The translations under genes were made by a program, and so were the position numbers. Below are positions 27,521 through 62,993 of a DNA stretch of 64,000 nucleotides, in pieces. Under the pieces are notes generated by a model. It searched no databases and was not told the DNA's origin. It was given only the letters and a program-made list of their open reading frames with translations. The stretch is from Opitutia bacterium (GTDB lineage: Bacteria > Verrucomicrobiota > Verrucomicrobiia > Opitutales > UBA953). The DNA lies in contig BGOI01000007.1 in NCBI GenBank assembly GCA_003569165.1, forward strand, positions 1-64,000. The letters run 5' to 3'. How positions within the stretch are numbered: position 1 is the first letter of the stretch; the number at the start of each line of letters is the position of its first letter.

Positions 27521-28325
27521 CCTCCTCTTGCAGCCATTGTCGGAACCGTTCTTCGTGCGGGCCCTGCTCGCCATCGTACTCAGCGGCACGACCTGCGCCT
27601 GCCTCGGCGCGTACGTCGTGCTCCGGCGCATGGCCTTCGTGAGCACCGCGCTCACGCACTCGATCTTGCCCGGCGTCGTCGGCGCGCTCCTCCTCGGCCT
27701 CTCACCTTACCTGGGCGCGCTCGTCGCCGCCCTGCTCACCGCGACCGGCGCCGCTTGGCTGGCCTCGCGCAAAGGTACGAGTGAAGACAGCGCGGTCGGC
27801 GTGATGCTGTCGGTGATGTTCGCCGCGGGTATCGCGCTCATGCAGCAGGCTAACTCTTGGCGCGACTTCGCCGGGCTGCTCTTCGGCAGCGTGGTCTCGG
27901 TCGGCCGCGAAGACCTCATCGTCATCGGCATCACCGCCGCCCTCGTGCTGTTCGGGCTCCGGGTGCTGCACAAGGAGCTCGAGCTCGCCTCCTTCGACGA
28001 AGAATACGCCGCCCTGCTCGGCGCCCGGCCCGCGCTCATGCGCGCCGTGCTCCTCGTACTCGTCGCGCTGGGCTCCGTCGCCTGCGTGCGCCTCGTCGGC
28101 GCGCTGCTCACGACCGCACTCTTCGTCATCCCCGCCGCGACGGGCGTGCTGCTCGGACGGACCGTACCTCAGGTGATGGCCTGGGGCGCCGGCTGCGCCC
28201 TCCTCGGCGGGTTCAGTGGCCTCTATCTTTCTTACTACGCACCGGCGGTACCGTCGGGCGCCGGGATCGTACTCTGCTGCGCACTGCCCTACCTGGCCGC
28301 GCGCCTCTTCGCCCCGCGTCGTTGA
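27513..28325 (+). CDS. znuB: Zinc/manganese ABC transporter, permease
   Basis: ABC-3 family permease, 270 residues, seven to eight membrane helices. Family features are GAYVVLRRMAFVSTALTHS near the N-terminus, the coupling-helix region SFDEEYAALLGARP and VRLVGALLTTALFVIPAATG. The ATG at 27513 overlaps the end of znuC by eight bases, which argues for translational coupling and against the in-frame upstream start. Completes a three-gene importer. Confidence 0.9.
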   Translation: MLDLLLQPLSEPFFVRALLAIVLSGTTCACLGAYVVLRRMAFVSTALTHSILPGVVGALLLGLSPYLGALVAALLTATGAAWLASRKGTSEDSAVGVMLSVMFAAGIALMQQANSWRDFAGLLFGSVVSVGREDLIVIGITAALVLFGLRVLHKELELASFDEEYAALLGARPALMRAVLLVLVALGSVACVRLVGALLTTALFVIPAATGVLLGRTVPQVMAWGAGCALLGGFSGLYLSYYAPAVPSGAGIVLCCALPYLAARLFAPRR

Positions 28326-46150: not shown

Positions 46151-46209
46151 CCTTTCAAGACAGCAGATGACAGCGGTAAGATGACGGATGACAGATCGGT
46201 GACAGGGTG

Positions 46210-46230
46210 GGATGCGATGACATCGCATCC
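46210..46230. repeat. Perfect 10-1-10 palindrome
   Basis: GGATGCGATG, A, CATCGCATCC, a perfect inverted repeat flanked on the left by several GATGACAG-type direct repeats (46165-46205). It sits immediately before a type A repeat unit. Confidence 0.8.
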
Positions 46231-46249
46231 GCTTGTCCCAGCTGCCTTG

Positions 46250-46305
46250 GGTAGGGTCGAGCATCCGTGCTCGACCGCGGCCGACCAAGGATGGTCAGCC
46301 CTACC
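46250..46305. repeat. Intergenic three-way-junction repeat, type A, copy 1
   Basis: A 56-base unit. Outer stem GGTAGGG (46250-46256)/CCCTACC (46299-46305). Inside are two hairpins: GTCGAGCA/TGCTCGAC with loop TCCG, and a GGC-GACC/GGTC-GCC stem around AAGGAT. A second copy with one mismatch lies at 62894-62949. Confidence 0.85.
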
Positions 46306-46324
46306 TCAAGACCGTCTCACAACC

Positions 46325-46402
46325 CAAGGGGAAACCGGAGACCGGATGATGAGCTAGGGGTTAACCCCCTCCGCATGCATTCCGGTTCCCGGTCTCCCCT
46401 TG
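46325..46402. repeat. Inverted repeat type D, copy 1
   Basis: Left arm 46325-46345 begins CAAGGGGAAACCGGAGACCG; the right arm 46382-46402 is its reverse complement with two or three mismatches. The 36-base centre contains AGGGGTTAACCCCCT, a further short palindrome. Related to 60975-61055. It lies 50 bases downstream of the DUF1552 gene end. Confidence 0.8.
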
Positions 46403-46451
46403 CGTTCAAATCTTTCCCTCACCGCCAACCGCTATCCGCTTAAACCAGGCT

Positions 46452-47768
46452 TCATCCCAAACTCAACTGGCCGCCTTCGCAAAGACTCGGATTACCGAAG
46501 GTCTTCATGGGATGGCCGAAGCCCTTGGCGATGGACATGAGCACACGGTTATGCGGCTCCTTCTTAAACTTGAGCGCGCGACCGGTCTTGAACCCAAGGC
46601 CGCCACCGATGAGCACCCACGGGATGTCTTCATGCGTGTGGCTGTTGCCCTTCCCGAGCTCGTTCGTCCAGACGATGGTGGTGTTGTCCAACATGTTGCC
46701 CTTACCGTTCGGCTCCGGGGTCTCCTGCAAGCGCTTCGCGAGGAAGGCAATCTGCTCGGCGAACCAGATATTGATCTTGGTCAGCTTCTCGACCGAGCCG
46801 GTATTGAGATCGGGGTCGTGCGAGAGCGAGTGATGGCTCTCGTCGACGCCGATCCACTTCATGCGCGCCTGGCCGACGGAATTGGTGAACTGGAACGTCG
46901 AGACACGGGCCATGTCGTTCTGGAAGGCGCTGATGAGGAGCTCGGTCTGGAGGCGCGTGATCTGCGGGATGCTGTCATTGTCCATCGGCACGCCCGGCTC
47001 GGGCGGGTGTGGCACCTTGAGGGCTGAATGCGACTGACTTTCCTTGAGGCCACGCTCGAGTTCGCGCAAGGCGGTAGCATGCTGATCCAGCAGGCCGCGG
47101 TCGCTCTTGTCGACGGCGTTGGCGACCTTGGCGATGTCGTCCTTAAGACCGTCGAGGACAGAACCGAGGGTCTCCCCTTCCTTCATCGATCCGTAGAGCT
47201 TGTCGAAGAGTTCGTAAGGGCTCGAGATCGGGGCGACGGGCTGGTTGGCGCCGGCGTAGCTCCAACGCGTCCAAGGATCCGCACGATTGCCCACGGCGAC
47301 GCCGATTTCCAACGAGCCCAGACGGGTCTTGGTCGCTGGATTGGACTGCAAGTATGTACGCAGGACTTGGTCGACGGACGGACCGCTGGCCCAGCCGGCC
47401 GGCGCACCGCCGCCACCCATGATGTTACCGGGGAAGAGCTCAATGCCGGTGAGCAGGCAGCTCATACCGCGCATGTGTGAGTCGCCGTCACCGCGGACAC
47501 GGTTGTTCACGCCCTTAAGCGTGAGTAGCTTATCCTTGAACGGCTCGAAGGGCTTCATGATCGCCTTAAGCTTGAAGGCCACGCCTTCCTCGTCGGGCCA
47601 GAAGGCCGGCGGGACGATGCCATTGGGCGAGAAGACGAAGATGACCCGCTGCCGGCGGCCGGTGATTGGCTCGGCGGCGCCGAGCGAAGCGAGGCCGCCC
47701 AGGAGTGGTAAGGCAGCGGCGGAGAGGCCGAGGCTGCGGAGGAAATTCCTGCGATGTTGGAGCGACAT
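46452..47768 (-). CDS. DUF1552-family protein, Tat-exported
   Basis: A 438-residue member of DUF1552, a family abundant in Planctomycetota and Verrucomicrobiota and nearly always paired with a DUF1592 cytochrome. The N-terminus has a twin-arginine motif (RRNFLRSLG) and a hydrophobic stretch to about residue 35. Typical segments are PNGIVPPAFWPDEEG, MRGMSCLLTG and TIVWTNELGKGNSHTHEDIP. The ATG at 47768 is chosen because it places the Tat motif at residue 6. The molecular function is unknown. Confidence 0.88.
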   Translation of the reverse strand: MSLQHRRNFLRSLGLSAAALPLLGGLASLGAAEPITGRRQRVIFVFSPNGIVPPAFWPDEEGVAFKLKAIMKPFEPFKDKLLTLKGVNNRVRGDGDSHMRGMSCLLTGIELFPGNIMGGGGAPAGWASGPSVDQVLRTYLQSNPATKTRLGSLEIGVAVGNRADPWTRWSYAGANQPVAPISSPYELFDKLYGSMKEGETLGSVLDGLKDDIAKVANAVDKSDRGLLDQHATALRELERGLKESQSHSALKVPHPPEPGVPMDNDSIPQITRLQTELLISAFQNDMARVSTFQFTNSVGQARMKWIGVDESHHSLSHDPDLNTGSVEKLTKINIWFAEQIAFLAKRLQETPEPNGKGNMLDNTTIVWTNELGKGNSHTHEDIPWVLIGGGLGFKTGRALKFKKEPHNRVLMSIAKGFGHPMKTFGNPSLCEGGQLSLG

Positions 47769-47772
47769 GGTC

Positions 47773-50085
47773 TTAGCGATTGGAAGGGGTGGTGGTAACG
47801 GTCGGGCGGAGCGCCGCGACGACGGCAACCTCGACGGCGAGGTTGCGGACGTGGAACTTGTCGGCGCGGAACTGGGAGGTCATCTGACCAAGCAACTCGG
47901 GCGAATACGCTGCGGGCGGCTGCTTCACCATTTCCTGGAAGAGGTTGCGGACGAATCCGGTCTGGCCGGAAAGGCTTTCGGCGGCGTGGATCGCGACATC
48001 GCGGGCACCGGTGAGCTTGATGACGTTGCCGTCCGCGGTGGTGTAATCGGAGGTTGGATCGACCGGTTTCTTATTGTCGGTGGTGCGCACGCGGCCAACG
48101 GCGTCGAAACGCTCGAAGCTGAAACCGAGCGGATTGATCGTAACGTGGCACGACATGCAGGCGGGCTTGGAGGTGAGCTCCGTCACCTTCTCGCGCATGG
48201 TGAACGAGGGGTCGAACTTATCGTCCATGAACGCGATGGCCATGGGCGGGGGCTTGAGCATGAGGCCGAGGATGTTACGCGTCACGAAGACGCCACGGTG
48301 GATCGGCGAGGAAGACTTGGTGTAGGAGAATGTGGCGAGGACAAACGGGTGCGTGAGCACGCCGCCGCGCTGTTCTGCATCCATCTTGACAGGCTGGAAG
48401 CCCGCACCGGCCTCGACCTTCTGGCCATAGAACTTGGCGAGGCGCTCGTTCATCAGGATGGTGTCGCTCAGTAGGAGCTGGCGGTAGTCGGATGCTTCGG
48501 ACCAGACGACACTCTCGGCGAAGAGATCCAGCGAGGTGCGGAGGTCCATCACGACGCCTTGGTCGAAGCCGGGATATTCCTTCTGGTCCTTGGCGATCTC
48601 GGCCCCTTCTTCGACGTGCAACCAGTGGTGAAGGAAGTCGCGCAGTTTCGACTTAGCACGCGGGTCCTTCATCATGCGCTGCGCCTGCAGCCGGACCTGG
48701 GTGGCATCCTTAAGCTGACCAGCCGCGGCGGCCTTCAAGAGCGCGGCGTCGGGAACGGAATCCCACAGCGTCAACGCGAGGCGCGAGGCGACGGCGTAAT
48801 CATCCTGCGGGCCGATACCGGGGTACAGGAAGGCAGGATTGGAGAGCGTGAAGATGAAGGCGCGCTTAGCGGCGACCTCTGGGGCGACGCCGGCGGCGTA
48901 GATCGCCGTAAGGTCGACCTTCTGCTCGTCGTTCAACGGGCGGCGGTACGCCATCTGGGCGAAGCGCAAGGTGAAGGCCTTGAGCTTTTCGCCGCGGTCA
49001 GGCGCGTCAGCCTTGGTACCCGCGAGAGTGAACAGGTGCGGACCAATCATCCCGGAGACCTGCAGCGCGCCTTTGGCGATGGCCTCCGTCCACTCGCGCG
49101 AGACCGAAGCGCCGCGCTCGTAGCCGATGCTGCCGTCGTCCGGCGGCAGCGGCACGGAAATGACGCTGACCGGAGAAGAAGATTTCGGTGAAAGGTTCGT
49201 GCGGGGAATCACCGTCCAGGCGCCGCCGGGCGGACGCCATTCGAGCCTCAGCGAAGCGGTCTTGTCCTTATACTTGAAGAACTCGAGCTTGAGCGGGTAG
49301 CTGCGACCGCCGAGGAGGAAGATTGGCGAGGAGGCCGTGCGCGTCATCGCCGAGCTCACCCAGATGTCAATGAGGGCGTTCTTTTCGCTGCCGTTCTCGG
49401 GAGCGTTAACGTAGAGACGGACGCCGTTGGGGGACGTGACCCGAAACTCATACTCGCCGGTATCCGGCACGTGGACCGAGCCGCTCCAGTTGATGGAGAA
49501 CTGCGCGGCGAAGCTGCCCTTCTCGGGAGCCTTATCGCCAAAGTCGAAATCAATGACCGGATCGATCTGCTGCTTGTAGGTGACTTCTGGACGATTCTGG
49601 TCCGGCTTCTTGGGATCGCGCTCCGGTCGTTCGCGGTAAGTGCCGGCCAGCCCGCCCGTCTCGGTCGTGGCAGTCGCGTTGCGGAGCGAAGCGAGGAGGT
49701 CCGCGATGCTCTCGCGGTACTGGCGGACGGTGAGGTGCGCGAGTTCGATACGGGGCGGATGATTACGGGCGCGGGCCTCGCCGGAATAGAAAGCCTTGTG
49801 GATGTATTCGGCGGAGGCGGTGGCGTCAGCGAGCGACAGGGTGCCGGGGTCGTTCTCGGGCATCTCGCGGGCGATGTACTTAGCCAGCGAAGCGATGGAT
49901 TTTTCTCCGACGAGGGGTTCATCGGCCTTGCCGGCGACGCCTTGGCCGACCGGTCCGTGACAACTCATACAGTCTTGGCGGTAGACGACTTCGCCGGCGC
50001 GCGGAGCGGCGAGATTCTTCTTATAGTAGCGCTGGCCTTGGCGGCCGGCGAAAACCAGGGAGGCGAGGACGACGAGCGCGGCCAC
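47773..50085 (-). CDS. DUF1592/PA14 planctomycete-type cytochrome c protein
   Basis: A 770-residue exported multi-domain protein. A membrane helix or signal (1-15), a cytochrome c domain with CMSCHG (near residue 39), a DUF1587-like segment, a PA14 sugar-binding-like domain (about 175-280), then the DUF1595/1592/1588/1585 series, with a second haem motif CMSCHV near residue 640 in DUF1588. The start is a GTG at 50085. It ends four bases before the DUF1552 gene starts. Expected to work with that protein in the cell envelope; a role in polysaccharide or aromatic breakdown is guesswork. Confidence 0.88.
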   Translation of the reverse strand: MAALVVLASLVFAGRQGQRYYKKNLAAPRAGEVVYRQDCMSCHGPVGQGVAGKADEPLVGEKSIASLAKYIAREMPENDPGTLSLADATASAEYIHKAFYSGEARARNHPPRIELAHLTVRQYRESIADLLASLRNATATTETGGLAGTYRERPERDPKKPDQNRPEVTYKQQIDPVIDFDFGDKAPEKGSFAAQFSINWSGSVHVPDTGEYEFRVTSPNGVRLYVNAPENGSEKNALIDIWVSSAMTRTASSPIFLLGGRSYPLKLEFFKYKDKTASLRLEWRPPGGAWTVIPRTNLSPKSSSPVSVISVPLPPDDGSIGYERGASVSREWTEAIAKGALQVSGMIGPHLFTLAGTKADAPDRGEKLKAFTLRFAQMAYRRPLNDEQKVDLTAIYAAGVAPEVAAKRAFIFTLSNPAFLYPGIGPQDDYAVASRLALTLWDSVPDAALLKAAAAGQLKDATQVRLQAQRMMKDPRAKSKLRDFLHHWLHVEEGAEIAKDQKEYPGFDQGVVMDLRTSLDLFAESVVWSEASDYRQLLLSDTILMNERLAKFYGQKVEAGAGFQPVKMDAEQRGGVLTHPFVLATFSYTKSSSPIHRGVFVTRNILGLMLKPPPMAIAFMDDKFDPSFTMREKVTELTSKPACMSCHVTINPLGFSFERFDAVGRVRTTDNKKPVDPTSDYTTADGNVIKLTGARDVAIHAAESLSGQTGFVRNLFQEMVKQPPAAYSPELLGQMTSQFRADKFHVRNLAVEVAVVAALRPTVTTTPSNR

Positions 50086-50147
50086 GACCTTACTGGACCG
50101 GGGAAAGTGGCATGAGGTTGTGACCCTAACCTCACGGGGAAGTTCCT

Positions 50148-50828
50148 CTAAATCAAGCCCGCCTCACCAAAACTGAACCACCCTTTACCCGCCGGATCGG
50201 CCTCCGGGCGACCGATGACCACATGATCCAGCAGCTCCACCCCCACGACCCTCCCGGCGTCGGCCAGCTGCCGGGTCACGGCCCGGTCCGCCGGACTCGG
50301 CGTCGGATCTCCGCTGGGGTGGTTGTGCGCCACGATCGCCGCCGACGCGGCATGCTTCAACGCCTGACGGAAGACCTCTCGCGGATGCAGGAGCGAACTC
50401 GTCGCGGTCCCGGAGCTGACCTCATGCAATGCGAGCAGCCGGTTGCGCCGGTTCAGGCAGAGCACCCAGCACTTCTCGACCGCGAGGCCGGCCGCGAATG
50501 GTTCGAGCCGCGCCCAGACCTTGGCGGGGGCGTCAAGCTTCTCGCCGGGATCATGCGCGCGCTCTCGGATTCTTCGCGCGAGTTCCATCGCGGCGGTAAG
50601 CTCGGCCGCCTTCGCGGGACCGAGCCCGTGGACCCGCCCGAAGTCATGCGTGTCCCAGGTCGCCAACGCCGCCAGCGAACCAGACTCCGCCAGCAAGGCC
50701 GTCGCGACGACCGGTGCTGGCGCGCCCTTGGTGCCAGTGCCGATGAGGAGTTCGATGAGCTCGGCGTCGAGCAAGGCCCGCGGACCAAGCCGCACGAGCC
50801 GCTCACGCGGACGATCCTGAGAAATCAT
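50148..50828 (-). CDS. radC: RadC/JAB-domain DNA repair-associated protein
   Basis: A 226-residue RadC: an N-terminal helix-hairpin-helix part (RVHGLGPAKAAELTAAMELA) and a JAB metalloprotease-like domain with the metal motif HNHPSGDPTPSPAD, exactly HxH-x7-S-x2-D. The historical repair role of RadC is doubtful; the fold is that of a DNA-associated hydrolase. It stands alone, with a 62-base gap to the DUF1592 gene. Confidence 0.92.
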   Translation of the reverse strand: MISQDRPRERLVRLGPRALLDAELIELLIGTGTKGAPAPVVATALLAESGSLAALATWDTHDFGRVHGLGPAKAAELTAAMELARRIRERAHDPGEKLDAPAKVWARLEPFAAGLAVEKCWVLCLNRRNRLLALHEVSSGTATSSLLHPREVFRQALKHAASAAIVAHNHPSGDPTPSPADRAVTRQLADAGRVVGVELLDHVVIGRPEADPAGKGWFSFGEAGLI

Positions 50829-50871
50829 CCCGCCACGCTGACGGCGTGACGGCGGCGCTCAAGCGGACCTA

Positions 50872-51544
50872 CTACCCAGCGGTTCCACCCAGGCGGCGGT
50901 AGTGGGCCAACACCTTGCCATAAGCCGGCGTCAGCGCCTCGAGGGATGCGACGTTCAGACCTAGGTCCTTAATCAGGCCGTCGCGCAGACCGTAGATCCA
51001 AGCGTGGACCTCGACCTTCTGCCCGCGGGCCCAGGCATCCTGCATGACCGTGGAATGACAGACGTTGGCCGCCTGTTCAATGACGTTGAGCTCGCAGAGC
51101 GTGTCCAGCTTCGCGGGGCCGAGCACGGACTCGACGACGATAGCGTGCTTGTGGTGCACGTCGCGCACGTGACGCAGCCAATTATCGACGAGGCCTACCT
51201 TGCGGCGCTCGAGCGAGGCCTGCACGCCGCCGCAGCCGTAGTGGCCCGCAGACGATGACGTGCTCAACCTTCAGGACATCGACGGCGTACTGTAGCACGG
51301 AGAGGCAGTTGAGGTCGGTGTGCACGACGACGTTGGCGACGTTGCGATGCACGAAGAGCTCGCCGGGCAGCAGACCGACAATCTCGTTGGCGGGGACGCG
51401 GCTATCCGAGCAGCCGATCCAGAGGTAACGCGGAGTCTGCTGCTTGGACAGCGTCTCGAAGAAAGCAGGGTCGCGGCGACGAACGCTCTCTGACCATTCG
51501 CGGTTTTGTCCGAACAGGTTTTCGATGGAAGACATCGAAGGCAC
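50872..51544 (-). pseudogene. Beta-carbonic anhydrase, interrupted by one frameshift
   Basis: Zinc enzyme for CO2 hydration. The N-terminal half (51544 down to about 51246) carries [12 protein letters not shown] with the zinc Cys and catalytic Asp-Arg pair and runs to HVIVCG. The C-terminal half continues in another frame with [13 protein letters not shown], holding the second zinc ligands His and Cys. One extra G in the GGG run at 51245-51247 (CCC on the plus strand) separates the two. Repaired length is about 223 residues, normal for the family, so an assembly error is likely. Confidence 0.85.
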
Positions 51545-51754
51545 TTACATTGGGAAACGCCTCGGGCGGGCAAGCGAATAGGACAATTTCCCCCTTTAGG
51601 CCTCCACTCGTTGCTATCGGCTGAGCGTCCAAACGTGGTCCGGAGTGAAAACTGGGTGTTTATCGGCCTTTACGACATCCTCGGGCTGCCTTCTTAACCT
51701 TCCGCCCTGTCGGGGGTTGAAACTCCGTCCGGCACGTGGTGTATTATCCATAAC

Positions 51755-52243
51755 ATGAAGACCAGTCTCCTCGCCTTGCTCGCCGGCGCCGCCCTCGCTT
51801 CGGCCGCCACCACGAACGAAAAGCCCCCGACTTCCAGCAAGGGCACCGTCGTGGTCGACAAGCCGAAGGCCACGACCGACAAGAAGAAGCCCAAGAAGGA
51901 AGTCCCCGTCGCGGCCGCGCTCGCCGATCCAGTCTCGCTCGTTGCTGAGTCCGTCGACGCCGCTACCCAGATCGCGATGGAAGCCGCCAAGGTCGCCCAG
52001 GCCGAAGCCGCTAAGCTCGCCGCCATCGGTACCGATAAGGCTGCTTCCCCTGCCAACGCCAAGCTCGCGGAAGCTGCCGTCGTCGCCGGCGCCACCGCCG
52101 CCAAAGAATTAAAGAAGGCCAAGAAGGAATCCGATGCCGAGAAGACCGAGAAACCGGAAGCGAAGAAGCCCGACGCCGAAGCGCCGAAGCCTGCCGCGAA
52201 GCCGACGGCCAAGAAGGCTGCCAAGGAAACGACCTCCCTCTAA
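51755..52243 (+). CDS. Small secreted Lys/Ala-rich protein (162 aa)
   Basis: A low-complexity exported protein with a signal peptide (1-17, cleavage after ASA), a Lys/Pro-rich stretch, a central Ala-rich helix (about 55-120, AAKVAQAEAAKLAAIGTDKA) and a Lys/Glu/Pro tail. I see no known domain. Histone-like and cell-wall-associated proteins can look like this. A bidirectional-looking terminator follows 18 bases after the stop. Confidence 0.6.
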   Translation: MKTSLLALLAGAALASAATTNEKPPTSSKGTVVVDKPKATTDKKKPKKEVPVAAALADPVSLVAESVDAATQIAMEAAKVAQAEAAKLAAIGTDKAASPANAKLAEAAVVAGATAAKELKKAKKESDAEKTEKPEAKKPDAEAPKPAAKPTAKKAAKETTSL

Positions 52244-52261
52244 AAAAGAGCCGTCTCCCTT

Positions 52262-52288
52262 AAAAAGCCCCGGATGACGGGGCTTTTT
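52262..52288. terminator. Rho-independent terminator, possibly bidirectional
   Basis: AAAAAGCCCC (52262-52271), short loop, GGGGCTTTTT (52279-52288). The A run allows use on the minus strand too, but no minus gene ends here. Confidence 0.85.
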
Positions 52289-52349
52289 CATGCCTAGCCG
52301 CGAAGCCCTTGAAACTTCCCCCGGCTTTCGCTGTATCATCCTTATCCCC

Positions 52350-52574
52350 ATGAAGCCCGCCTTCCTCGCCCTCTTGCTCACCGCCAGCCTCGCCGTGGCC
52401 GCCGAGCCCGCCAAGGAATCCCCGGCCGCTCCGGAGCCGAAGCCTTTCTTTGACCCCGCCGCGCCAGCCCCGACGGTCGATCCGACCAAGCCCGTGCCCG
52501 AGCCTTCCATCCCGACGCCAGAAAAGAAGAAGCCGGTCGTGACTGAAAAAAAGAAGAAGAAGGAGAAGAAGTAA
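52350..52574 (+). CDS. Small secreted Pro/Lys-rich protein (74 aa)
   Basis: Begins with a signal peptide (1-18, cleavage after VAA) and continues as Pro/Glu/Lys-rich sequence ending in the basic tail KKKKKEKK. It resembles the preceding gene in composition, signal peptide and pyrimidine-rich leader (CATCCTTATCCCC before the ATG at 52350). No function can be assigned. Coding status rests on the signal peptide and codon pattern. Confidence 0.5.
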   Translation: MKPAFLALLLTASLAVAAEPAKESPAAPEPKPFFDPAAPAPTVDPTKPVPEPSIPTPEKKKPVVTEKKKKKEKK

Positions 52575-52618
52575 GTTGGCACGAGGTAGGGACGTGCGCC
52601 CTCGCTCAAGCGTGTATC

Positions 52619-52702
52619 GAGGTAGGGACAGCACCACGTGCTGTCCTAAGCCGCCGCAAGGAGACACACATTAGGACGCGATAGTGATCACGTCCCTACC
52701 TC
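52619..52702. repeat. Intergenic three-way-junction repeat, type B, copy 1
   Basis: Outer stem GAGGTAGGG (52619-52627)/CCCTACCTC (52694-52702), perfect over nine bases. Inner hairpins are GGACAGCAC-CAC-GTGCTGTCC and one built on GGACG/CGTCC around GTGATCA. A partial copy (GAGGTAGGGACGTGCGCCC) starts at 52583 just to its left. Confidence 0.85.
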
Positions 52703-52720
52703 AAGACAGTCGCAGCACCC

Positions 52721-52754
52721 AGAGGGAAGCTGGAGACCGGATGATTGGCTGGGG
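52721..52754. repeat. Type D inverted-repeat half unit
   Basis: AGAGGGAAGCTGGAGACCGG and then ATGATTGGCTGGGG, matching the left half of the type D unit at 60975. The right arm is not present. The rest of the gap 52755-52912 contains a partial type A end (GGGTAGGGTCGGGACCGCG at 52858) and otherwise nothing I recognise. Confidence 0.7.
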
Positions 52755-52912
52755 ATACATATTGTCGGGTGACAGGTGACAGCTACCGGGGCATCGGCCT
52801 TTCAGGTGTCAGCCGTTCGGCCTTCGGCGGCCGGCTCCAGGTTCCCGCGGCTGTAATGGGTAGGGTCGGGACCGCGTGTCCTCCGGTCCTCGTATCCTCC
52901 TGCCCTCCTGCC

Positions 52913-55522: not shown

Positions 55523-55524
55523 GA

Positions 55525-56553
55525 TTATTCGCCGAAGAGGGTTCCCTGCGAGGCGGCGTCCGCGGCGCCAGGAGGCGCCGGCTCGGCGTGCAGATGGCGA
55601 GGCGGACGCGTGACGCGGGCCGCGAGGGCGCGCGTGCGTTCCTGCGCGAGGCGTTCGACCATGCCCGCGAGGGCGTGGCGAATCCACTTGGGCGTGAAGG
55701 AAGCGGCGGAATAATCGCACGGGCCGTAGCCATGCACGCGGCCGGCCTGAAGCAGCGCGTCGTTCTGGGCGAACTCGGCCTCGCTCTCGGGCACGTAGAC
55801 CGCGAAAGCCTTGCCGCCGTTCTTACGCAGCAACGAAAAGACGGGGACGTCACTGGGTCCGTCCGCGACGTAGATCATGTTCTCGAAGGGCACGCGCCGG
55901 TCCTCGGCGCGCACGACGGCGTTGACGTCGATGTCGGCGTTCTTGTTCGAGCCTTTGTTGATCTCGAAGAGGAAGCGGGTCTTGATGGTGTTATCGACCA
56001 TCGCGGCGACCTGGGTGATTTCGGTCGGCAGGTCCAACGCGAGCTCGTCCTGCTTGGTGAAATGCGGCGGGAGCGGGTGCTCGAGGAATTCGCAGCCGTA
56101 GATGCCGTCGCAATGCGCCGCGAGCGAGGTGCCGCGGATCATCTCGGCGAGGCCGGTGCTGATGACGTAATGCTCGAGGACAACTTCGACGTTATGCTTC
56201 CGGCCGAGTTCGCGGACGTGCTCCTTGAGCGCGGGGAAGAACTGCGGGAGGCCCGGGCAGAGCTCGATCTCAGCCCCGAGCTCCCGGAGGCGGGCGTTGG
56301 TGAGGCCCTTCATGAGGCCAGCCTTCACATAGCTCAGGAGGTGGTTGAGGTAGACGGAGTCCTTGGGCGTGCGGATGCCTTTGCGGGCATAAAGCGCCGG
56401 AAGCTGGTTCGTTTCCTTCCAGAACTGCTCCTCATCGACCCCGAAGGCCTTGAAGAGCGGGGTTTGCATATAGCCCGGGCAAAGGGTCTTATCGAAGTCC
56501 CACACACAGGTGAGGACGTGGGTGCCGCGGAGCGCGGGTTCCTTGGGCTGCAT
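55525..56553 (-). CDS. HAD-superfamily phosphatase-like protein
   Basis: A 342-residue HAD hydrolase. Motif I is VWDFDKTLCPGY, motif II VISTGLAEMI, and the late motif is YVADGPSDVPVFSLL. A cap region of about 150 residues lies between I and II. The C-terminal tail is Pro/Ala-rich and ends QGTLFGE, which resembles a beta-clamp binding peptide. Substrate unknown. The ATG at 56553 was chosen over one 36 codons upstream, because the extra residues are unlike a protein and would fill the gap to the divergent prfA. Confidence 0.8.
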   Translation of the reverse strand: MQPKEPALRGTHVLTCVWDFDKTLCPGYMQTPLFKAFGVDEEQFWKETNQLPALYARKGIRTPKDSVYLNHLLSYVKAGLMKGLTNARLRELGAEIELCPGLPQFFPALKEHVRELGRKHNVEVVLEHYVISTGLAEMIRGTSLAAHCDGIYGCEFLEHPLPPHFTKQDELALDLPTEITQVAAMVDNTIKTRFLFEINKGSNKNADIDVNAVVRAEDRRVPFENMIYVADGPSDVPVFSLLRKNGGKAFAVYVPESEAEFAQNDALLQAGRVHGYGPCDYSAASFTPKWIRHALAGMVERLAQERTRALAARVTRPPRHLHAEPAPPGAADAASQGTLFGE

Positions 56554-56660
56554 GTCGGTCGGAAAAGGGATGAAGGTCGGGCTTGCGGAGGGGAGCCTGC
56601 CGCACTCCATTGAATAACGAACGGACGTCTCCTGTCCAAGCCCGATTAACCCTCTTAACA

Positions 56661-57752
56661 ATGTCCGCCAGCCCCCTCCGCCCCGACCTGACCGGCTTCC
56701 GCCGCCGCCTGGCCGAGCTCGAAGGCCTGCTGGCCGACCCGGCGACCTTCGCCGATAACCGCCGGGCCGCCGCCCTCGGTGCCGAGCTTCGGTTCACGTC
56801 TAAAGCCGTCAAGGCCGACGACGCCCTGGTGGCCCTGGAAAAGGAGCTGGCCGAGTCCCGCGCCCTGGCCGGCGAGGCCGACGTGGAGATTCGCGCGATG
56901 GCCGCCGAGGAGATCGCCCGGCTGGAGCCGGCCGTCGAGGTGGCCCGCGAACAGCTGATCCGGTCCATCATCCCGGTGAATCCGGATGATTCTCGTAATG
57001 CTCTTGTAGAAATCCGGGCCGGCACGGGCGGGGAGGAAGCCTCCCTCTTCGCCGCCGAGCTCCTCCGCGCCTACACCCGCTTCGCCGAGAAGAAGGGCTG
57101 GAAGTGTGAGCTGATGTCCCTCTCCCACTCCGACCTAGGCGGGGTCCGCGACGCGGTCCTGCTCATCGAAGGCGAAGGCGCCACCGCCCTCCTCCGCCAC
57201 GAGGCCGGCGTCCACCGCGTCCAGCGCGTGCCCGCCACCGAAGCCTCCGGCCGCGTCCATACCTCCGCTGCCACGGTCGCGGTCCTCCCCGAAGCCGAAG
57301 AAGCCGAAGTCGTCCTGAAGCCCGAAGACCTCGATATGTCCGTCGCCCGCGCGAGCGGCGCCGGCGGCCAGCACGTCAATAAGACGGAGTCCGCGGTGCA
57401 GATCATCCACAAGCCGACGGGGTTGATGGTCTACTGCGCCGACGAACGCTCCCAGCTGCGCAATCGCGTAAAGGCCCTCCGCGTCCTGCGCTCCCGCCTC
57501 CTCGACCTGACGCGCGCCAAGGAACGCGAGGCCCGCGCCGACGCGCGCAAGACACAGGTGGGTTCCGGCGACCGCTCCGAACGCATCCGCACTTACAACT
57601 TCCCGCAGAACCGGATCACCGATCACCGCATCGACCTCACGGTCCACGGGATCGAACAGGTGCTCGAAGGAAATCTCGACCAGCTCGTGGACGCGCTCTT
57701 CGAGGCTGACCTGCGCGAGCGCGCTGAGGCGATTACTCGGCCGACAGCCTGA
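56661..57752 (+). CDS. prfA: Peptide chain release factor 1
   Basis: Reads UAA and UAG. The tripeptide determinant is PAT in RVPATEASGRVHTS (RF1 type, not the SPF of RF2) and the GGQ motif is SGAGGQHVNKTESAVQI. It is 363 residues, normal. Start at 56661 in a pyrimidine-rich leader; an upstream in-frame ATG would overlap the divergent gene. A 20-base convergent overlap exists with the next gene. Confidence 0.97.
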   Translation: MSASPLRPDLTGFRRRLAELEGLLADPATFADNRRAAALGAELRFTSKAVKADDALVALEKELAESRALAGEADVEIRAMAAEEIARLEPAVEVAREQLIRSIIPVNPDDSRNALVEIRAGTGGEEASLFAAELLRAYTRFAEKKGWKCELMSLSHSDLGGVRDAVLLIEGEGATALLRHEAGVHRVQRVPATEASGRVHTSAATVAVLPEAEEAEVVLKPEDLDMSVARASGAGGQHVNKTESAVQIIHKPTGLMVYCADERSQLRNRVKALRVLRSRLLDLTRAKEREARADARKTQVGSGDRSERIRTYNFPQNRITDHRIDLTVHGIEQVLEGNLDQLVDALFEADLRERAEAITRPTA

Positions 57753-58236
57753 GCAACGCGACGTCTTCGCGGACCAGGAGATCGCCCTTGTCGGCGTGGC
57801 CATCATCGACCCAGCCGTCGGCGACCCCGAAGGCGCGTTCGTAGGAACGACCGGGCACCGCCGGCGTGAAGACGACCGCCGGACCGCCCGAGGGGGACTT
57901 GGCCTGGAAGACCCACTTGCCGGAGACCTGACACTTGGCGACCGCCGTGGTCATCGGCTCGAGATTGAAACCACCGAACTGTCCGCCGGGCGCCGCGAGG
58001 TCGCAATCCATCGGCCACGCGCTCTTCTCAGCCTGATACTGCAGGAAGATGATCCGCGCCTGCATGCAGACCTGCGACACGGAGTTAGCCTTCCGATGAT
58101 CAAGCACGACGAACACCAGGGCGACCACGAGGCCGATGAGCAGGCCCCAGAAACCAAGTCGGGCCGCCGACAGCCAGAGCGGCTCGAGGGGCTTTCGCAG
58201 GATCTCGGCTTTGGGGGCGGGAGGGGCGGCGGACAT
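57733..58236 (-). CDS. Membrane-anchored protein of unknown function, pilin-like layout
   Basis: A 167-residue protein: an N-terminal Pro-rich segment, one membrane helix (about 27-48, GLLIGLVVALVFVVLD) continuing into a charged helix with QARIIFLQYQAEKSAWP, then a globular part with three cysteines. This layout resembles a minor pilin/pseudopilin of the kind seen with secretin systems, but the normal prepilin motif GFTLIE is absent, so the likeness may be chance. It overlaps prfA tail to tail. Confidence 0.55.
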   Translation of the reverse strand: MSAAPPAPKAEILRKPLEPLWLSAARLGFWGLLIGLVVALVFVVLDHRKANSVSQVCMQARIIFLQYQAEKSAWPMDCDLAAPGGQFGGFNLEPMTTAVAKCQVSGKWVFQAKSPSGGPAVVFTPAVPGRSYERAFGVADGWVDDGHADKGDLLVREDVALLRLSAE

Positions 58237-58326
58237 CGGCCATCACGATGCCCGGGGCGACCCGGCCAGCAAGCCCGGAGGAAGTGCGTTTGTTCCTTGG
58301 AGGGGAGCCGCTTACCGCCTTGATTG

Positions 58327-59115
58327 ATGGCCATGGATGCGGACCACCTCCAACGCTTCGCCGGCATCGGCCGTCTCTACGGACGCGCCGGCATGGAACG
58401 CCTCGCCCGCTCATCCTTCCTCGTCGTCGGCCTCGGCGGCGTGGGCTCCTGGACCGTTGAGGCTCTCGCCCGCTCGGGTGTCGGCCACCTCTCGATGGTC
58501 GATGGCGATGCTGTCTGCATCTCCAATACGAACCGCCAACTACACGCCGTCGCAGGCAATGACGGTAAGCCAAAGACGGAGGCGATGGCCGAACGCGCCC
58601 GCTCGATCCACCCCCAGATTCGCACGACGCTCCACCAGCGCTTCCTTTCCCGCTTCAATCCGCACGAGGTCCTCACGGATTTCGACGGCGTGGTGATCGA
58701 CGCGATGGATGCGCTCTCGCCGAAGTGTGGCCTGATCGCCGAAGCGGTGAACCGTAAGTTGCCAGTGGTCACGGTCGGCGGTTGCGCCGGCCGCCTCGAC
58801 GGCACGCGAATTAAGGTCACCGATCTCCGCGATTCGCGCGATGATCCGCTGATGATGCTGGTCCGCAAACGCCTCCGTCAGAACTTCGACTTCCCCCGTG
58901 GCAAGGCGCCGTTCGGCGTCTCGTGCGTGTGGTCCGACGAACCATTCACGCAGCCGACGGATTGCGAAGGCCTCCCAGGCGGTGAAATTCCTGAAGGTGA
59001 AGACCTGCACCCGAACTGCGAATGGGGCTACGGTACGGCGTCGCATGTGGCCGGCGCGTTCGGCCTCGCGGCCGCCGGCGAAGCACTCCGCCTCTCGCTG
59101 CTACGCGCCGAATAA
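58327..59115 (+). CDS. tcdA: tRNA threonylcarbamoyladenosine dehydratase (TcdA)
   Basis: E1-like ThiF-fold enzyme that cyclises t6A on tRNA. The nucleotide-binding loop is VVGLGGVGSWTVEALARSG, the metal/adenylate segment VDGDAVCISNTNRQLHA, and the C-terminal CsdL-like features include FGVSCVWSDEP and ASHVAGAFGLAAAGEAL. At 262 residues it has the usual length. The ATG at 58327 is preferred; a TTG one codon earlier and an ATG two codons later are possible. The last 15 bases overlap the convergent TatD gene. Confidence 0.9.
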   Translation: MAMDADHLQRFAGIGRLYGRAGMERLARSSFLVVGLGGVGSWTVEALARSGVGHLSMVDGDAVCISNTNRQLHAVAGNDGKPKTEAMAERARSIHPQIRTTLHQRFLSRFNPHEVLTDFDGVVIDAMDALSPKCGLIAEAVNRKLPVVTVGGCAGRLDGTRIKVTDLRDSRDDPLMMLVRKRLRQNFDFPRGKAPFGVSCVWSDEPFTQPTDCEGLPGGEIPEGEDLHPNCEWGYGTASHVAGAFGLAAAGEALRLSLLRAE

Positions 59116-59895
59116 GCGCGCGAAGTTCGCACACGTCAGCGCGGCGGACTCCTCGGGCGTCACACCCATGGTCAGCGCGAGCTCGGCGTTATTACGCACG
59201 AGATTCGAGGGATGGTTCTGCTCGGAGCCTTCCGCGTCGGGCGCGAGCTCACGCACGCGAAACTCCGCTGCGGGACAAAGCGCGGGAGCGTCGGTCTCGA
59301 CGAGGATTCGCTCCCGCGGAATCACCGCGGCAAACTGAATGCGGAGGTCAGCCTTGCGCGGAATGAGATGGTGCGCACTGAAAGAGAAATACGCCCCGAG
59401 CCGCGCGAGCTCGGGCACGAGTTCGACAGGGCCATTCCAACTATGCAGGAGAAAGCCGCGCCGCGGGAGCGCGGTCGCACGTAAGATATCCATCAGCGGT
59501 CCGATCGCTTTGACGCAGTGGATGGTGAGCGCGCGGTCGAGCTCGACGGCCAAAGCGAGCTGCGTCCGGAACGCGGCCTCTTGGGCGACGGGGTCGTGAT
59601 CCTTTACCCAACGGTCGAGGCCCATCTCGCCGACGCCAGCGGTCGGATGCGCGAGCAGGACCGCGCGGAGCTCCGCTTCCCAGCCGGCGGGCGCGGTCGG
59701 GACATCCCACGGATGCAGGCCGAACGAGACGCGGTTGCGCGGATCGCGCCGGCCGAGGGCCGCCACGTCCGCCCAGTCGGAGGGCGCGCTGCCGTTGATC
59801 ATCGCCTGGCCCACGCCGTCCACCCGGGCCTGCTCGACCGCGGCGTACGGCACTTCGGCGAACTGGTAATGACAATGGGCGTCGCGGAGTTCCAT
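59101..59895 (-). CDS. TatD-family metal-dependent hydrolase
   Basis: A TIM-barrel nuclease-type hydrolase of 264 residues. Metal ligands appear as DAHCHYQ, GEMGLDRW, IHCVKA, LLHSWNG and VETDAPALC. TatD proteins act as 3'-5' exonucleases or D-amino-acyl-tRNA related enzymes; the exact substrate here is unknown. It runs head-to-head with purC at 91 bases and tail-to-tail with tcdA. Confidence 0.85.
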   Translation of the reverse strand: MELRDAHCHYQFAEVPYAAVEQARVDGVGQAMINGSAPSDWADVAALGRRDPRNRVSFGLHPWDVPTAPAGWEAELRAVLLAHPTAGVGEMGLDRWVKDHDPVAQEAAFRTQLALAVELDRALTIHCVKAIGPLMDILRATALPRRGFLLHSWNGPVELVPELARLGAYFSFSAHHLIPRKADLRIQFAAVIPRERILVETDAPALCPAAEFRVRELAPDAEGSEQNHPSNLVRNNAELALTMGVTPEESAALTCANFARLFGA

Positions 59896-59986
59896 CGGGC
59901 GACTCGCATCCTGCCCGCGCGAGTCGCCGCCTCAACGACGAACCACCTTGCCCTGCCGCCCCGCCCTGCCCTATCTCCGTGGCAGG

Positions 59987-60883
59987 ATGAAGACGCCGCC
60001 CTTGCCCACCGAAGCGCTGATGACCGTCACCGGCCTACCCTACCCGCTCCAAGCGAAGGGTAAGGTCCGTGAAGTCTTCGACCTCGGCACGCATTACCTG
60101 ATCGTGGCGACGGACCGTCTCTCGGCTTTCGACGTCGTGATGCCCAACGGCGTCCCGGGCAAAGGCATCCTCCTCACCCAGATCAGCCTCTGGTGGTTCG
60201 ACCAGGCCCGCCTTGTCTTCCCGACGCACCTGGTGCCCGACCACGCCAACGCACTGGCCAAGGCCCTGCACGGCCACGAACACCTGATCCCGCGCTCGAT
60301 GCTCGTGCGCAAGCTCAAGCCTCTCCCGGTCGAAGCAGTCGTCCGCGGCTACCTCGCGGGCAGCGGCTTCAAGGAATACCAGAAGACCGGCGGCATCCTC
60401 GATCACCCACTGCCCGAAGGCTTGCTCGACGGCTCGAAGCTGCCGCAGCCGATCTTCACGCCGTCCACTAAGGCCGCCGAAGGCCACGACGAGGCCATCA
60501 CCCGCGCCCGCTGCGGCGAGGTCCTTGGCGAAAAAGTTTTCCGCACGGTACAAGAAACCTCCATCGCGCTCTACCGCATGGGCGCCGAACGCGCCGCCAA
60601 AGCCGGCGTCATCCTGGCCGATACGAAGTTCGAATTCGGGAGCGCTCCCGACGGCTCGTTGGTGCTGATCGACGAAGTCCTGACGCCCGACTCTTCCCGC
60701 TACTGGCCAGCCGCCACCTGGCAGCCCGGCCGCGCCCAGCCCTCTTACGATAAGCAGTTCGTCCGCGATTGGCTCGAAACCCAGCCGTGGAATAAGACCG
60801 CGCCGGGCCCAACCCTGCCGGCTGACGTCGTGCAGAAGACGCAGGCCCTCTACGCGGAGTGCCTCGAGCGGCTGACTTCGTAA
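59987..60883 (+). CDS. purC: SAICAR synthetase (purine synthesis)
   Basis: Ligates aspartate to CAIR in de novo purine synthesis. The 298-residue enzyme has GKVREVFDLGTHYLIVATDR, SAFDVVMPNGVPGKG, VVRGYLAGSGFKEYQKTGG and DTKFEFG, matching the longer, eukaryote-like branch of the family. The ATG at 59987 is chosen; an upstream in-frame ATG would start in non-conserved sequence. A repeat island (60901 onward) follows its stop. Confidence 0.93.
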   Translation: MKTPPLPTEALMTVTGLPYPLQAKGKVREVFDLGTHYLIVATDRLSAFDVVMPNGVPGKGILLTQISLWWFDQARLVFPTHLVPDHANALAKALHGHEHLIPRSMLVRKLKPLPVEAVVRGYLAGSGFKEYQKTGGILDHPLPEGLLDGSKLPQPIFTPSTKAAEGHDEAITRARCGEVLGEKVFRTVQETSIALYRMGAERAAKAGVILADTKFEFGSAPDGSLVLIDEVLTPDSSRYWPAATWQPGRAQPSYDKQFVRDWLETQPWNKTAPGPTLPADVVQKTQALYAECLERLTS

Positions 60884-60900
60884 GAAGTTGACCGGCTGCC

Positions 60901-60930
60901 GAGGTAGGGTCGGGACCGCGTGCTGCCCTA
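60901..60930. repeat. Partial intergenic repeat end, type A-like
   Basis: GAGGTAGGGTCGGGACCGCG followed by TGCTGCCCTA. Related to the partial copy at 52858 but without a matching right stem. The rest of the gap to 60974 holds only AGGTAGG (60939) and no gene. Confidence 0.6.
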
Positions 60931-60974
60931 GTTGCCTTAAGGTAGGTGTCCGCGGCTGGCGGTTAAGTTCGCTC

Positions 60975-61055
60975 AAAGGGAAACCGGAGACCGGATGATT
61001 GGCTGGGGTTATTAATCATGCCCGAAGCAAACCTCCCGGTTTCCGGTCTCCCTTT
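60975..61055. repeat. Inverted repeat type D, copy 2
   Basis: Left arm 60975-60994 (AAAGGGAAACCGGAGACCGG) and right arm 61036-61055 are reverse complements with two mismatches. The centre reads ATGATTGGCTGGGG and on through TTATTAATCATG. Same family as 46325-46402. Confidence 0.82.
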
Positions 61056-61072
61056 GGCTCTTCCTCTGCATC

Positions 61073-61249
61073 GAGGTAGGGACGTGATCACTATCGCGTC
61101 CTAAGTTATGACACGTTCGCCGAATGGTGAACGCTAGGTAGGGGCACGATTCATCGTGCACTCCTCACTTCGGAGGGCGCGGCAAAGCCACGCCCCTACT
61201 TGCGGCCGCCCTGCGGCGGCCGAGGACAGCACGTAGTGCTGTCCCTACC
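61073..61249. repeat. Inverted type B repeat with a nested type C unit
   Basis: The ends are the reverse complement of the type B ends: GAGGTAGGGACGTGATCACT and on at 61073, and GGACAGCACGTAGTGCTGTCC at 61224-61244 followed by CCTACC (to 61249). Inside lies a different unit, type C, 61138-61199: outer stem GTAGGGG/CCCCTAC, with hairpins GCACGAT/ATCGTGC and a GGCG...CGCC stem. Thus one repeat appears inside another. Confidence 0.75.
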
Positions 61250-61301
61250 CGTCGCGGAACCGGGGTCGACAGGCAGGGTTGGACAGGTTACCAAACAGAC
61301 C

Positions 61302-62426
61302 ATGAAGCCGACCCCGCTCCTTGCCCTCCTGCTTGCCTCCGTCGCGTTCGCCGCGCCGGAACCGAAGTTCCGCCTGCAGGAGATCGACAAGATCGAGATT
61401 GGCTACGGCCTGGCAATCGCCGACGTCGATGGCGACGGGAAGCCTGATATCATCCTGGCCGACAAGTCTACGGTGCAGTGGTATCAGAACCCCACCTGGA
61501 AGAAGCACGTCATCGCCGAGAACCTCACGAAGGAGGATAATGTCTGCGTGGCCGCGCGTGACATCGACGGTGACGGCAAGGCCGAGATCGCCATCGGCGC
61601 CGGCTGGAATCCGTCCGACACGGTGAAGAGCGGCGCGGTCTTCTATCTCATCCCCCCGGCTGATCGCACCCAGAAGTGGGAAGCGGTGAAGCTGCACCAT
61701 GAACCGACCGTCCACCGCATGCAGTGGGTCGAGGTCTCCACGGGCCGCTGGGACCTCGTCGTCCAACCTCTCCATGGCGTCGGCAACAAAGGCGGCGAAG
61801 GCGCGGGCGCCAAGCTCCTCGCCTATCGCAAGCCGGCCAATCCGAAGGACGAATGGAAGACCGAGCTCGTCAACGACTCTGGCCACATCACCCATAACCT
61901 CGAGCTGGTGCGCTGGCAGAGACATATCGCCCAACAAATCCTCGCCGGCTCCAAGGAAGGCATCTGGTTCAATTCCTACGCCGACGGCGCCTGGCAGAAG
62001 ACGCAGCTCACTACCGAACCCATCGGCGAACTCCGTGGCGGCCGCCTGCCTTCCGGCAACTTCATCGCGACGATCGAACCTTTCCACGGCACGAAGTCGG
62101 CCATCTATACCCGTGACGGCACCGGCGCTTGGCAGCGCAATCAGGTCCTCGATGGCTTCAAGGACGGCCATGCGGTCGCCTGCGCCGACTTCCTCGGCAC
62201 CGGCTCCGACCAGGTCATGGTCGGCTGGCGCGGCGCCGACCCCGGCGTCCGCCTCCTCACCCCGCTCGACGATGCGGGCAAGACCTGGCGCACGAGCGTG
62301 ATCTCGACCAAGGAGATCGCCGTCGAAGACTTCAAGGCCGCCGACCTCGATGGCGACGGCAAGCCCGACCTCATCGTCGCCGGCCGCCAGACCAAGAACC
62401 TCATGATTTTCTGGAACGCCCGCTGA
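61302..62426 (+). CDS. Secreted FG-GAP/VCBS repeat protein
   Basis: A beta-propeller-type exported protein of 374 residues. Signal peptide 1-17 (cleavage after AFA). At least three calcium-binding FG-GAP repeats are clear: IADVDGDGKPDIILAD, ARDIDGDGKAEIAIGAG and AADLDGDGKPDLIVAGR. Such proteins bind carbohydrates or act as adhesins in Verrucomicrobiota and Planctomycetota. The leader follows directly after a repeat island, so its promoter may lie among the repeats. A terminator follows at 62446. Confidence 0.88.
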   Translation: MKPTPLLALLLASVAFAAPEPKFRLQEIDKIEIGYGLAIADVDGDGKPDIILADKSTVQWYQNPTWKKHVIAENLTKEDNVCVAARDIDGDGKAEIAIGAGWNPSDTVKSGAVFYLIPPADRTQKWEAVKLHHEPTVHRMQWVEVSTGRWDLVVQPLHGVGNKGGEGAGAKLLAYRKPANPKDEWKTELVNDSGHITHNLELVRWQRHIAQQILAGSKEGIWFNSYADGAWQKTQLTTEPIGELRGGRLPSGNFIATIEPFHGTKSAIYTRDGTGAWQRNQVLDGFKDGHAVACADFLGTGSDQVMVGWRGADPGVRLLTPLDDAGKTWRTSVISTKEIAVEDFKAADLDGDGKPDLIVAGRQTKNLMIFWNAR

Positions 62427-62445
62427 GGCGTCCCGTCTAGGCATG

Positions 62446-62471
62446 AAAAAGCCCTCGTGAGAGGGCTTTTT
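62446..62471. terminator. Rho-independent terminator, symmetrical
   Basis: AAAAAGCCCTC, GTGA, GAGGGCTTTTT. It can serve both the FG-GAP gene on the plus strand and the tRNA-Gln gene on the minus strand. Confidence 0.9.
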
Positions 62472-62484
62472 GCTTTCAGGAAAT

Positions 62485-62553
62485 AGTCCGACTAGGATTT
62501 GAACCTAGACAAGGAGAATCAGAATCTCCTGTGCTACCATTACACCATCGGAC
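62485..62553 (-). tRNA. tRNA-Gln (anticodon CTG)
   Basis: On the minus strand it begins GTCCGATGGTGTAATGGTAG, with anticodon stem GGAGA/TCTCC and loop TTCTGAT (CTG), a T arm CTAGGTTCAAATCCTAG, and the acceptor GTCGGAC. CCA is not encoded. The pattern is a close match to bacterial tRNA-Gln of the GTCCGATGGTGTAAC type. Confidence 0.9.
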
Positions 62554-62750
62554 TGTCCTGAGTCGTCTGACGATGGGACTCCCCGGCCGTTCGTCAAAAA
62601 GAAAGGAGAGGCATTCGGTGCCGAAATTGCCTTAAAACAGAGGCCCAGAGGCCCGGAGGCTCAGTTGACCAGAGGGACATTCCCGTTTCGGGTGGCGGGT
62701 GGCAGCCTCAGGTGGCGGGTGGCAGGATGAAATTTCCTGGTGCCTGGATC

Positions 62751-62835
62751 GAGGTAGGGACAGCACCACGTGCTGTCCTCGGCCACGGAAAGCACGACGC
62801 AGATTAGGACGCGATAGTGATCACGTCCCTACCTC
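62751..62835. repeat. Intergenic three-way-junction repeat, type B, copy 2
   Basis: Stem GAGGTAGGG (62751-62759)/CCCTACCTC (62827-62835). The end hairpins are identical to copy 1 (GGACAGCACCACGTGCTGTCC; AGGACGCGATAGTGATCACG), while the 25 bases between them differ. Followed by CAAGGCAG, similar to the flank of copy 1 (CAAGACAG). Left of it, 62554-62750 holds GGTGGCGGGTGGCAG-type short direct repeats and nothing coding. Confidence 0.85.
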
Positions 62836-62848
62836 AAGGCAGCCACAG

Positions 62849-62867
62849 CCCAATCATCCGGTTTCCG
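62849..62867. repeat. Type D half unit, inverted
   Basis: CCCAATCATCCGGTTTCCG, the reverse complement of the left-arm region of type D (CGGAAACCGG and ATGATTGGG). Confidence 0.65.
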
Positions 62868-62893
62868 TTTTCGCTCGTTGTTTCTCTGCCTTG

Positions 62894-62949
62894 GGTAGGG
62901 TCGAGCATCCCTGCTCGACCGCGGCCGACCAAGGATGGTCAGCCCTACC
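62894..62949. repeat. Intergenic three-way-junction repeat, type A, copy 2
   Basis: Identical to 46250-46305 at 55 of 56 positions (the loop reads TCCC instead of TCCG). Both copies are preceded by CTGCCTTG. The gene at 62994 ends 45 bases to the right. Confidence 0.85.
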
Positions 62950-62993
62950 TCATGAATCTCCCAGACCCTGCCCTCCGGCCCTCCGGCCCTCGC

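Follow-up and report, generated by a model that had tools for sequence, protein, structure and literature searches.

GTAG hairpin islands in an Opitutia genome are REPs and REPINs linked to several class-specific RAYT transposases

The DNA analyzed here, referred to as the window, is a stretch of 64,000 nucleotides (C7:1-64000) from the genome of an Opitutia bacterium (G000; 2,026,500 bases in 37 contigs, 86.6% complete). Repeat units are present in four of its intergenic gaps, at about 46.2, 52.6, 60.9, and 62.7 kb, as a preliminary description of this DNA had reported. That description called these gaps the only long noncoding stretches in this part of the window, which was not confirmed: a crude gene finder, which may have missed genes there, also left gaps at about 50.1, 51.3, and 55.7 kb. 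The single repeat family that it proposed was likewise replaced by at least four classes of GTAG hairpins (A, B, C, and D), accompanied by decayed copies, and a separate palindrome of about 80 bases that lacks GTAG. The features of the four gaps are as follows (units without a direction are given no strand).

46249..46306, no strand: class A REPIN, GTAG hairpins 46251-46276 (+) and 46279-46304 (-), 2 bases between; fold z -4.99
46326..46401, no strand: second (non-GTAG) palindrome of about 80 bases, full copy
52621..52700, no strand: hybrid REPIN, class B 52622-52646 (+) and class C 52674-52699 (-); fold z -3.55
52721..52754, + strand: second palindrome family, half copy
52859..52878, + strand: decayed GTAG repeat (GGTAGGGTCGGGACCGCGTG)
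60903..60930, + strand: decayed GTAG repeat, with a similar copy in this gap of relative G015
60975..61055, no strand: second palindrome family, full copy; fold z -3.99
61075..61249, no strand: nested block, class C 61076-61101 (+), class D pair 61138-61161 (+) and 61175-61199 (-), and class B 61224-61248 (-)
62753..62833, no strand: hybrid REPIN, class B 62754-62778 (+) and class C 62807-62832 (-); fold z -3.50, with 1/200 shuffles equally stable
62850..62876, - strand: second palindrome family, half copy
62893..62950, no strand: class A REPIN, hairpins 62895-62920 (+) and 62923-62948 (-); fold z -5.24

The natural unit of the GTAG repeats is a half-unit, in which a hairpin with a stem of about 9 bp and outer pairs GG..CC comes directly after a GTAG head. 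The units had been described as beginning with GGTAGGG and ending with CCCTACC; such spans do exist, but each is made of two half-units in facing orientation. In class A (46.25 and 62.9 kb), GTAG + GGTCGAGCATCC(G/C)TGCTCGACC faces GTAG + GGCTGACCATCCTTGGTCGGCC at a separation of 2 bases. Class B, GTAG + GGACAGCAC(C/T)ACGTGCTGTCC, and class C, GTAG + GGACGTGATCACTATCGCGTCC, occur together at 52.6, 61.1 to 61.2, and 62.75 kb. Class D (61.14 to 61.2 kb) is a pair nested between one C and one B hairpin, and a similar order of hairpins is found in G042 (L164).

The window holds 16 copies of GGTAGGG against 4.07 expected from shuffles, and none of the 100 shuffles reached 16. Before position 46,250, the window yielded no clean GTAGG hairpin between genes, in agreement with the earlier description, which saw no units in the first 45 kb; a single GGTAGGG at 28287 has no such hairpin. 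The recurrent right flank CTACCTCAAG described previously was recovered in part, as a weak CTGCCT upstream of class A and as CGCAGGGCG in class D. Otherwise, the 16 bases upstream of GTAG carry little information in the 107 copies compared, except for (A/G)G directly before the head. The class D flank is a conserved 5' element found in 8/10 copies (e.g., window 61138-61199), unlike the other classes. Five units were folded as DNA, four of them GTAG units and the fifth a copy of the non-GTAG palindrome, with z scores from -3.5 to -5.2; for the unit at 62.75 kb, the best fold differs from two separate hairpins. Between 45900 and 64000, nothing except one tRNA matched Rfam at the gathering score, and the 52.6-kb unit found no match among plasmid records.

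The abundance of these repeats was explored with class-specific patterns, since plain GGTAGGG proved weak as a genome-wide test (565 matches versus 340 in the reversed control). A 29-base pattern of fixed stem length was also rejected, having missed most copies (16 matches versus 8 in the control). The wider B-type pattern GTAGGGNCNGCACNNCGTGC, which takes in class B and the classes of RAYT1 and RAYT2, matched 54 times in the genome and was found in 45/55 genomes of the genus. The A-type pattern matched 93 times and was found in 29/55 genus genomes, and class C, searched with a tolerance of 2 mismatches, occurred 7 times and in 28/55. For all three, none of the 40 genomes from outside the genus and no reversed control gave a match.

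For anatomy and placement we studied 328,106 bases, comprising the window and 14 further stretches, most of them picked as rich in GGTAGGG or as holding a RAYT gene, so the copy density in this set is not the genome-wide density. A hairpin of at least 8 bp directly follows GTAG at 152/1508 sites. By this fraction, GTAG ranks second of the 256 tetranucleotides, after the overlapping TAGG (120/1001), the median being 2.4%; by raw counts rather than fractions, G+C-rich words lead (e.g., CGGC, 249/10226). With genes masked by a simple codon-usage gene finder, 110/142 copies of GTAGG followed by a hairpin fall in gaps versus 83/390 of those without one. Among gaps of at least 30 bases, one or more REPs were found in 20/29 convergent, 13/86 co-directional, and 3/33 divergent gaps (convergent versus divergent, p 1e-6). 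The placement relative to genes, which the preliminary description had proposed as a check, is thus mainly intergenic and most often convergent. Head-to-head pairs take in 68/118 of the GTAGGG hairpins, and neighboring hairpin pairs comprise 34 head-to-head, 25 tandem, and 5 tail-to-tail arrangements.

A transposase acting in trans on dispersed REP-like palindromes had been put forward, with a search for TnpA-REP as a check. The proposal is supported: the genome holds well over 100 copies of the repeats and four RAYT genes flanked by their own GTAG classes. The Pfam Y1 model detected one RAYT, and a search with that protein revealed four in the genome, at C32:11545, C3:71714, C3:76279, and C1:465327. 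None was found within the 64-kb window. NCBIfam names all four as REP-associated tyrosine transposases; their scores with NF047646 (REP_Tyr_transpos) are 69.5, 71.2, 78.4, and 81.5 bits (the last for RAYT4) against a cutoff of 80, which places three below it. RAYT2, RAYT3, and RAYT4 had no Pfam match at E 0.001. For RAYT1, TnpA-REP (4er8) was the sole match in the PDB at E up to 1, with E 6.4e-5.

All four RAYT genes have hairpins on both sides, of a different class for each gene. RAYT1 is flanked by GTAG+GGTC(A/G)GCACTGCGTGC(T/C)GACC and RAYT2 by GTAG+GGGCAGCACCGCGTGCTGCCC. The flanks of RAYT3 reproduce class B of the window letter for letter, the hairpin at 52622-52646 being identical to them; class B is assigned to RAYT3. 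RAYT4 is flanked by GTAG+GGCCGAGCATCCCTGCTCGGCC and GTAG+GGCCAACCATCCTTGGTTGGCC, which are near class A with some stem pairs exchanged; the REPIN at 46249..46306 is correspondingly near, and not identical to, the REPs around RAYT4. Class A most likely goes with RAYT4 or with a closely related RAYT. No RAYT of G000 corresponds to class D, but RAYTs of the relatives G032 and G054 lie between hairpins of this kind; the class is an orphan whose cognate RAYT survives in relatives. No cognate RAYT of class C was found among the RAYT flanks examined. A tandem array of A-type half-units with a 40-base period accompanies RAYT4, with seven on one side (L047 5013-5968 = G000:C1:465013-465968). The gene neighbors were kept in 3/4 relatives for RAYT2, in 1/1 for RAYT4, and in 5/6 for RAYT3, where both flanks were kept in 3 and the upstream flank alone in 2.

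To compare RAYTs and REPs across relatives, 52 RAYT places (50 distinct) were examined, further and mostly more distant protein matches being left aside, and 45/52 were kept after dropping 2 duplicates, 2 at contig ends, 2 with a stop, and 1 unrelated record. GTAGGG hairpins lie within 350 bases on both sides of 40/45 RAYTs and on one side of 2. At the other three (G036_C4, G007_C118, and G067_C76), no GTAGGG hairpin was found within that distance; the RAYTs G036:C4 and G007:C118 (L057 and L087) share 82% identity. When the flanking hairpins were searched by GTAG alone, the outer pairs were GG..CC in 156/161 and the stem measured 9 bp in 149/161. The distance between RAYTs correlates with the distance between their REPs (rho 0.547; 0/1999 permutations as high, the highest being 0.241), both rho and its permutations disregarding shared descent. 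For RAYT pairs less than 30% different, the median REP distance is 0, and in the RAYT tree, RAYT1, RAYT2, RAYT3, and RAYT4 each cluster with relatives that bear a like REP.

The motifs expected of the family are nearly constant among the 45 RAYTs: HUH in 44 (missing in G027_C18), Y-NP in 45, and W-Q-8-R, with the spacing of 4er8, in 44 (missing in the RAYT4 relative G004_C70). Counterparts of W94, Q95, and R104 of the Escherichia coli enzyme are thus present in 44/45. These residues belong to its GTAG-reading region, the role of W94 being left open in the available part of that work (PMC6006769).

Wider B-type REPs are also more abundant where a RAYT1-3-clade transposase was assigned. In the 14 genus genomes with an assigned RAYT1-3-clade gene, a set that includes G007 (gene with a stop) and G033 (gene in two pieces), wider B-type copies number 27 to 78 (median 54.5), versus 0 to 49 (median 14) in the other 41 genus genomes (p 4e-7). 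Such copies are held by 31/41 of the genomes without an assigned gene, in numbers up to 49, and are read as relics, the genomes being incomplete.

The sites themselves differ between genomes. For the gap preceding the gene at 61302, the comparison took in 30 loci, all placed in one orientation and some with a short upstream reach. Among close relatives, compared over 1.5 kb upstream and with a neighbor protein 92-95% identical, G008, G012, and G029 hold a different unit in this gap. In G015 a further pair lies beside the shared decayed copy, and G026 and G037 have no unit. The B/C pair at 62753-62833, by comparison, recurs in G040 and G050, downstream of the same gene and at the same offsets, with one base of B changed there. 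Its retention at 79% protein identity indicates that some insertions are old.

We conclude with high confidence that the islands are accumulated REPs and REPINs, short nonautonomous mobile elements linked to several class-specific RAYTs of the genus. RAYTs are single-strand DNA transposases with HUH and tyrosine motifs, and those of this genus would most likely read GTAG and the hairpin on single-stranded DNA. Such an enzyme may then cut near GTAG and copy or move the REPIN into a new intergenic site; how it would cut and copy is carried over by analogy from the homologous E. coli enzyme. What the present data show directly is the anatomy of the units, their copy numbers and intergenic placement, the pairing and co-divergence of RAYTs with REPs, and the differences in sites between genomes. 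Several RAYTs, each with one hairpin class, have worked in the genus.

A host function could instead keep the units in place, with their position around RAYT genes incidental; at convergent 3' ends they might serve to terminate transcription or to form the hairpins of mRNA ends. The strong enrichment in convergent gaps and the stability of the folds (z -3.5 to -5.2) favor such a role. A terminator, however, needs no GTAG 5' of its hairpin, and in co-directional gaps only 20/39 REPs lie nearer the upstream stop. Moreover, one and the same gap holds other classes or none where the neighbor protein is 92-95% identical, and RAYT distance tracks hairpin distance. Taken with these observations, a host function is very unlikely to account for the units. 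Even less probable, to the point of being hardly credible, is that a double-strand (DDE) transposon gave rise to them as MITEs, which would carry terminal repeats and target duplications. Inverted symmetry, intergenic placement, and variation between genomes would suit such elements, but the GTAG-plus-hairpin anatomy is strand asymmetric, as in RAYT substrates, and GTAG units flank RAYT genes, including identical hairpins on either side of RAYT1. The MITE, structural-protein, and RNA-processing options raised in the preliminary description are not needed for the GTAG units.

The repeats are thereby settled as RAYT-linked REPs, and it is well supported that the system is of a known kind, here in a host that has received little study. 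The GTAG REPs and REPINs of gammaproteobacteria (Nunvar 2010, PMC2817692; Bertels and Rainey 2011, PMC3116915) are described, in the portions of these papers available, as sharing the GT(A/G)G head with a GC-rich palindrome, inverted pairs, RAYTs lying within their cognate REPs, several RAYT-REP pairs per genome, and REP abundance tied to RAYT presence. Earlier work on gammaproteobacteria has already described both the co-divergence of RAYTs and REPs and how REP abundance depends on RAYT presence (PMC2817692; PMC3686654). The present system differs from those in its phylum, in the GG..CC outer pairs (156/161), and in the placement of RAYT1 between two complete direct REPINs. Within the same phylum, the GTAG repeats of Opitutus terrae (Di Nocera 2013, PMC3733652) also form head-to-head, hybrid, and clustered dimers, have repeat-specific REPtrons, and prefer convergent and unidirectional gaps. 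The consulted sections of that paper describe O. terrae as very rich in these repeats and give the names of its families GTAG-17, -19, and -20; the likeness to the classes found here is one of organization. Orphan REP classes arising through RAYT loss and RAYTs at novel sites are known from fluorescent pseudomonads and Stenotrophomonas (PMC3686654), an account that, in the part available, describes no lone REPIN at a RAYT site such as the one found here. A search of the open-access literature returned no paper on a REP-associated tyrosine transposase in Opitut- taxa. The 45 RAYTs, nearly all from one genus, form a natural series with many hairpin classes and a near-constant GTAG + GG..CC clamp, which can help in tracing hairpin recognition to particular RAYT residues.

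In G000, a REPIN, RAYT1, and a second REPIN in direct orientation lie next to a gene that we take, from its sequence, to be of the Gfo/Idh type. A close copy of the Gfo/Idh-type gene was found in 22 other genomes, in none of which a RAYT lies beside it; the next gene of G000 is visible in 12 of them as well, and three contigs end early (L203 at 56 bases, L210 at 366, and L200 at 596). One REPIN of RAYT1's class lies beside this gene in G035. A second locus adjoins a gene that is presumably amino-acid-permease-like, present in 20/55 genomes and not in G000. There, G002, G007, and G026 have the order REPIN, RAYT1, REPIN. The two REPINs are identical, spacer included, within G002 and within G026, the spacer differing between these genomes; they differ from each other in G000 and in G007, where RAYT1 has a stop. 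At the permease locus, the left half-unit is paired with a different partner in G040, and G031 carries an unlike pair; no REP was found there in the remaining genomes, including G001 and G004, four of the contigs ending within 190 bases. The identities speak against a recent move of RAYT1 straight from the permease locus to its site in G000, which had been considered: the G000 copy is 74% identical to those of G002 and G026, which are 94.5% identical to each other.

G037 (L224) has a lone REPIN with the same outer flanks as the REPIN-RAYT1-REPIN of L221, L222, and L225. RAYT1 might, as a tentative and rather doubtful reading, be the cargo of a composite element, a block gained or lost by recombination between REPINs or by RAYT excision that leaves a lone REPIN (G037), at two unrelated loci; the lone REPIN between the outer flanks of the RAYT1 locus is a single case, and gain and loss both fit it. 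RAYTs are usually described as fixed and vertically inherited. One account has them as single-copy, vertically inherited genes that do not copy themselves (PMC8049555, in the part available), and RAYTs at novel chromosomal sites have been reported (PMC3686654). If true, such a cassette would give RAYTs a way to move, and the lone-REPIN site bears on the mobility of RAYT genes in this respect. What is new here is modest: the position of RAYT1 between direct REPINs, seen at two unrelated loci, a lone REPIN in one relative, and the separate palindrome family of about 80 bases.

In this second family, arms of the form AA(A/G)GGGA(A/G)ACCGG(A/G)(A/G)ACCGG (AARGGGARACCGGRRACCGG) enclose the palindrome, and the two full copies of the window have no GTAG head. 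The arms matched 49 times in G000 and were found in 40/55 genus genomes, with 0/40 outside the genus and none in the control; among the listed places in G000, no gene was seen to lie between inverted arms, and no partner enzyme came to notice. In the 328 kb, 22/23 core matches lie in gaps. The family has terminal inverted repeats and varies by site: the gap of the copy at 60975..61055 also holds the palindrome in G015 and lacks it in G008, G012, G026, and G029. A MITE reading fits this family better than it fits the GTAG units. Word-like low-complexity tracts (ggtggcgggtggcag, gatgacag) adjoin the REP islands at window positions 62640-62730 and 46170-46230.
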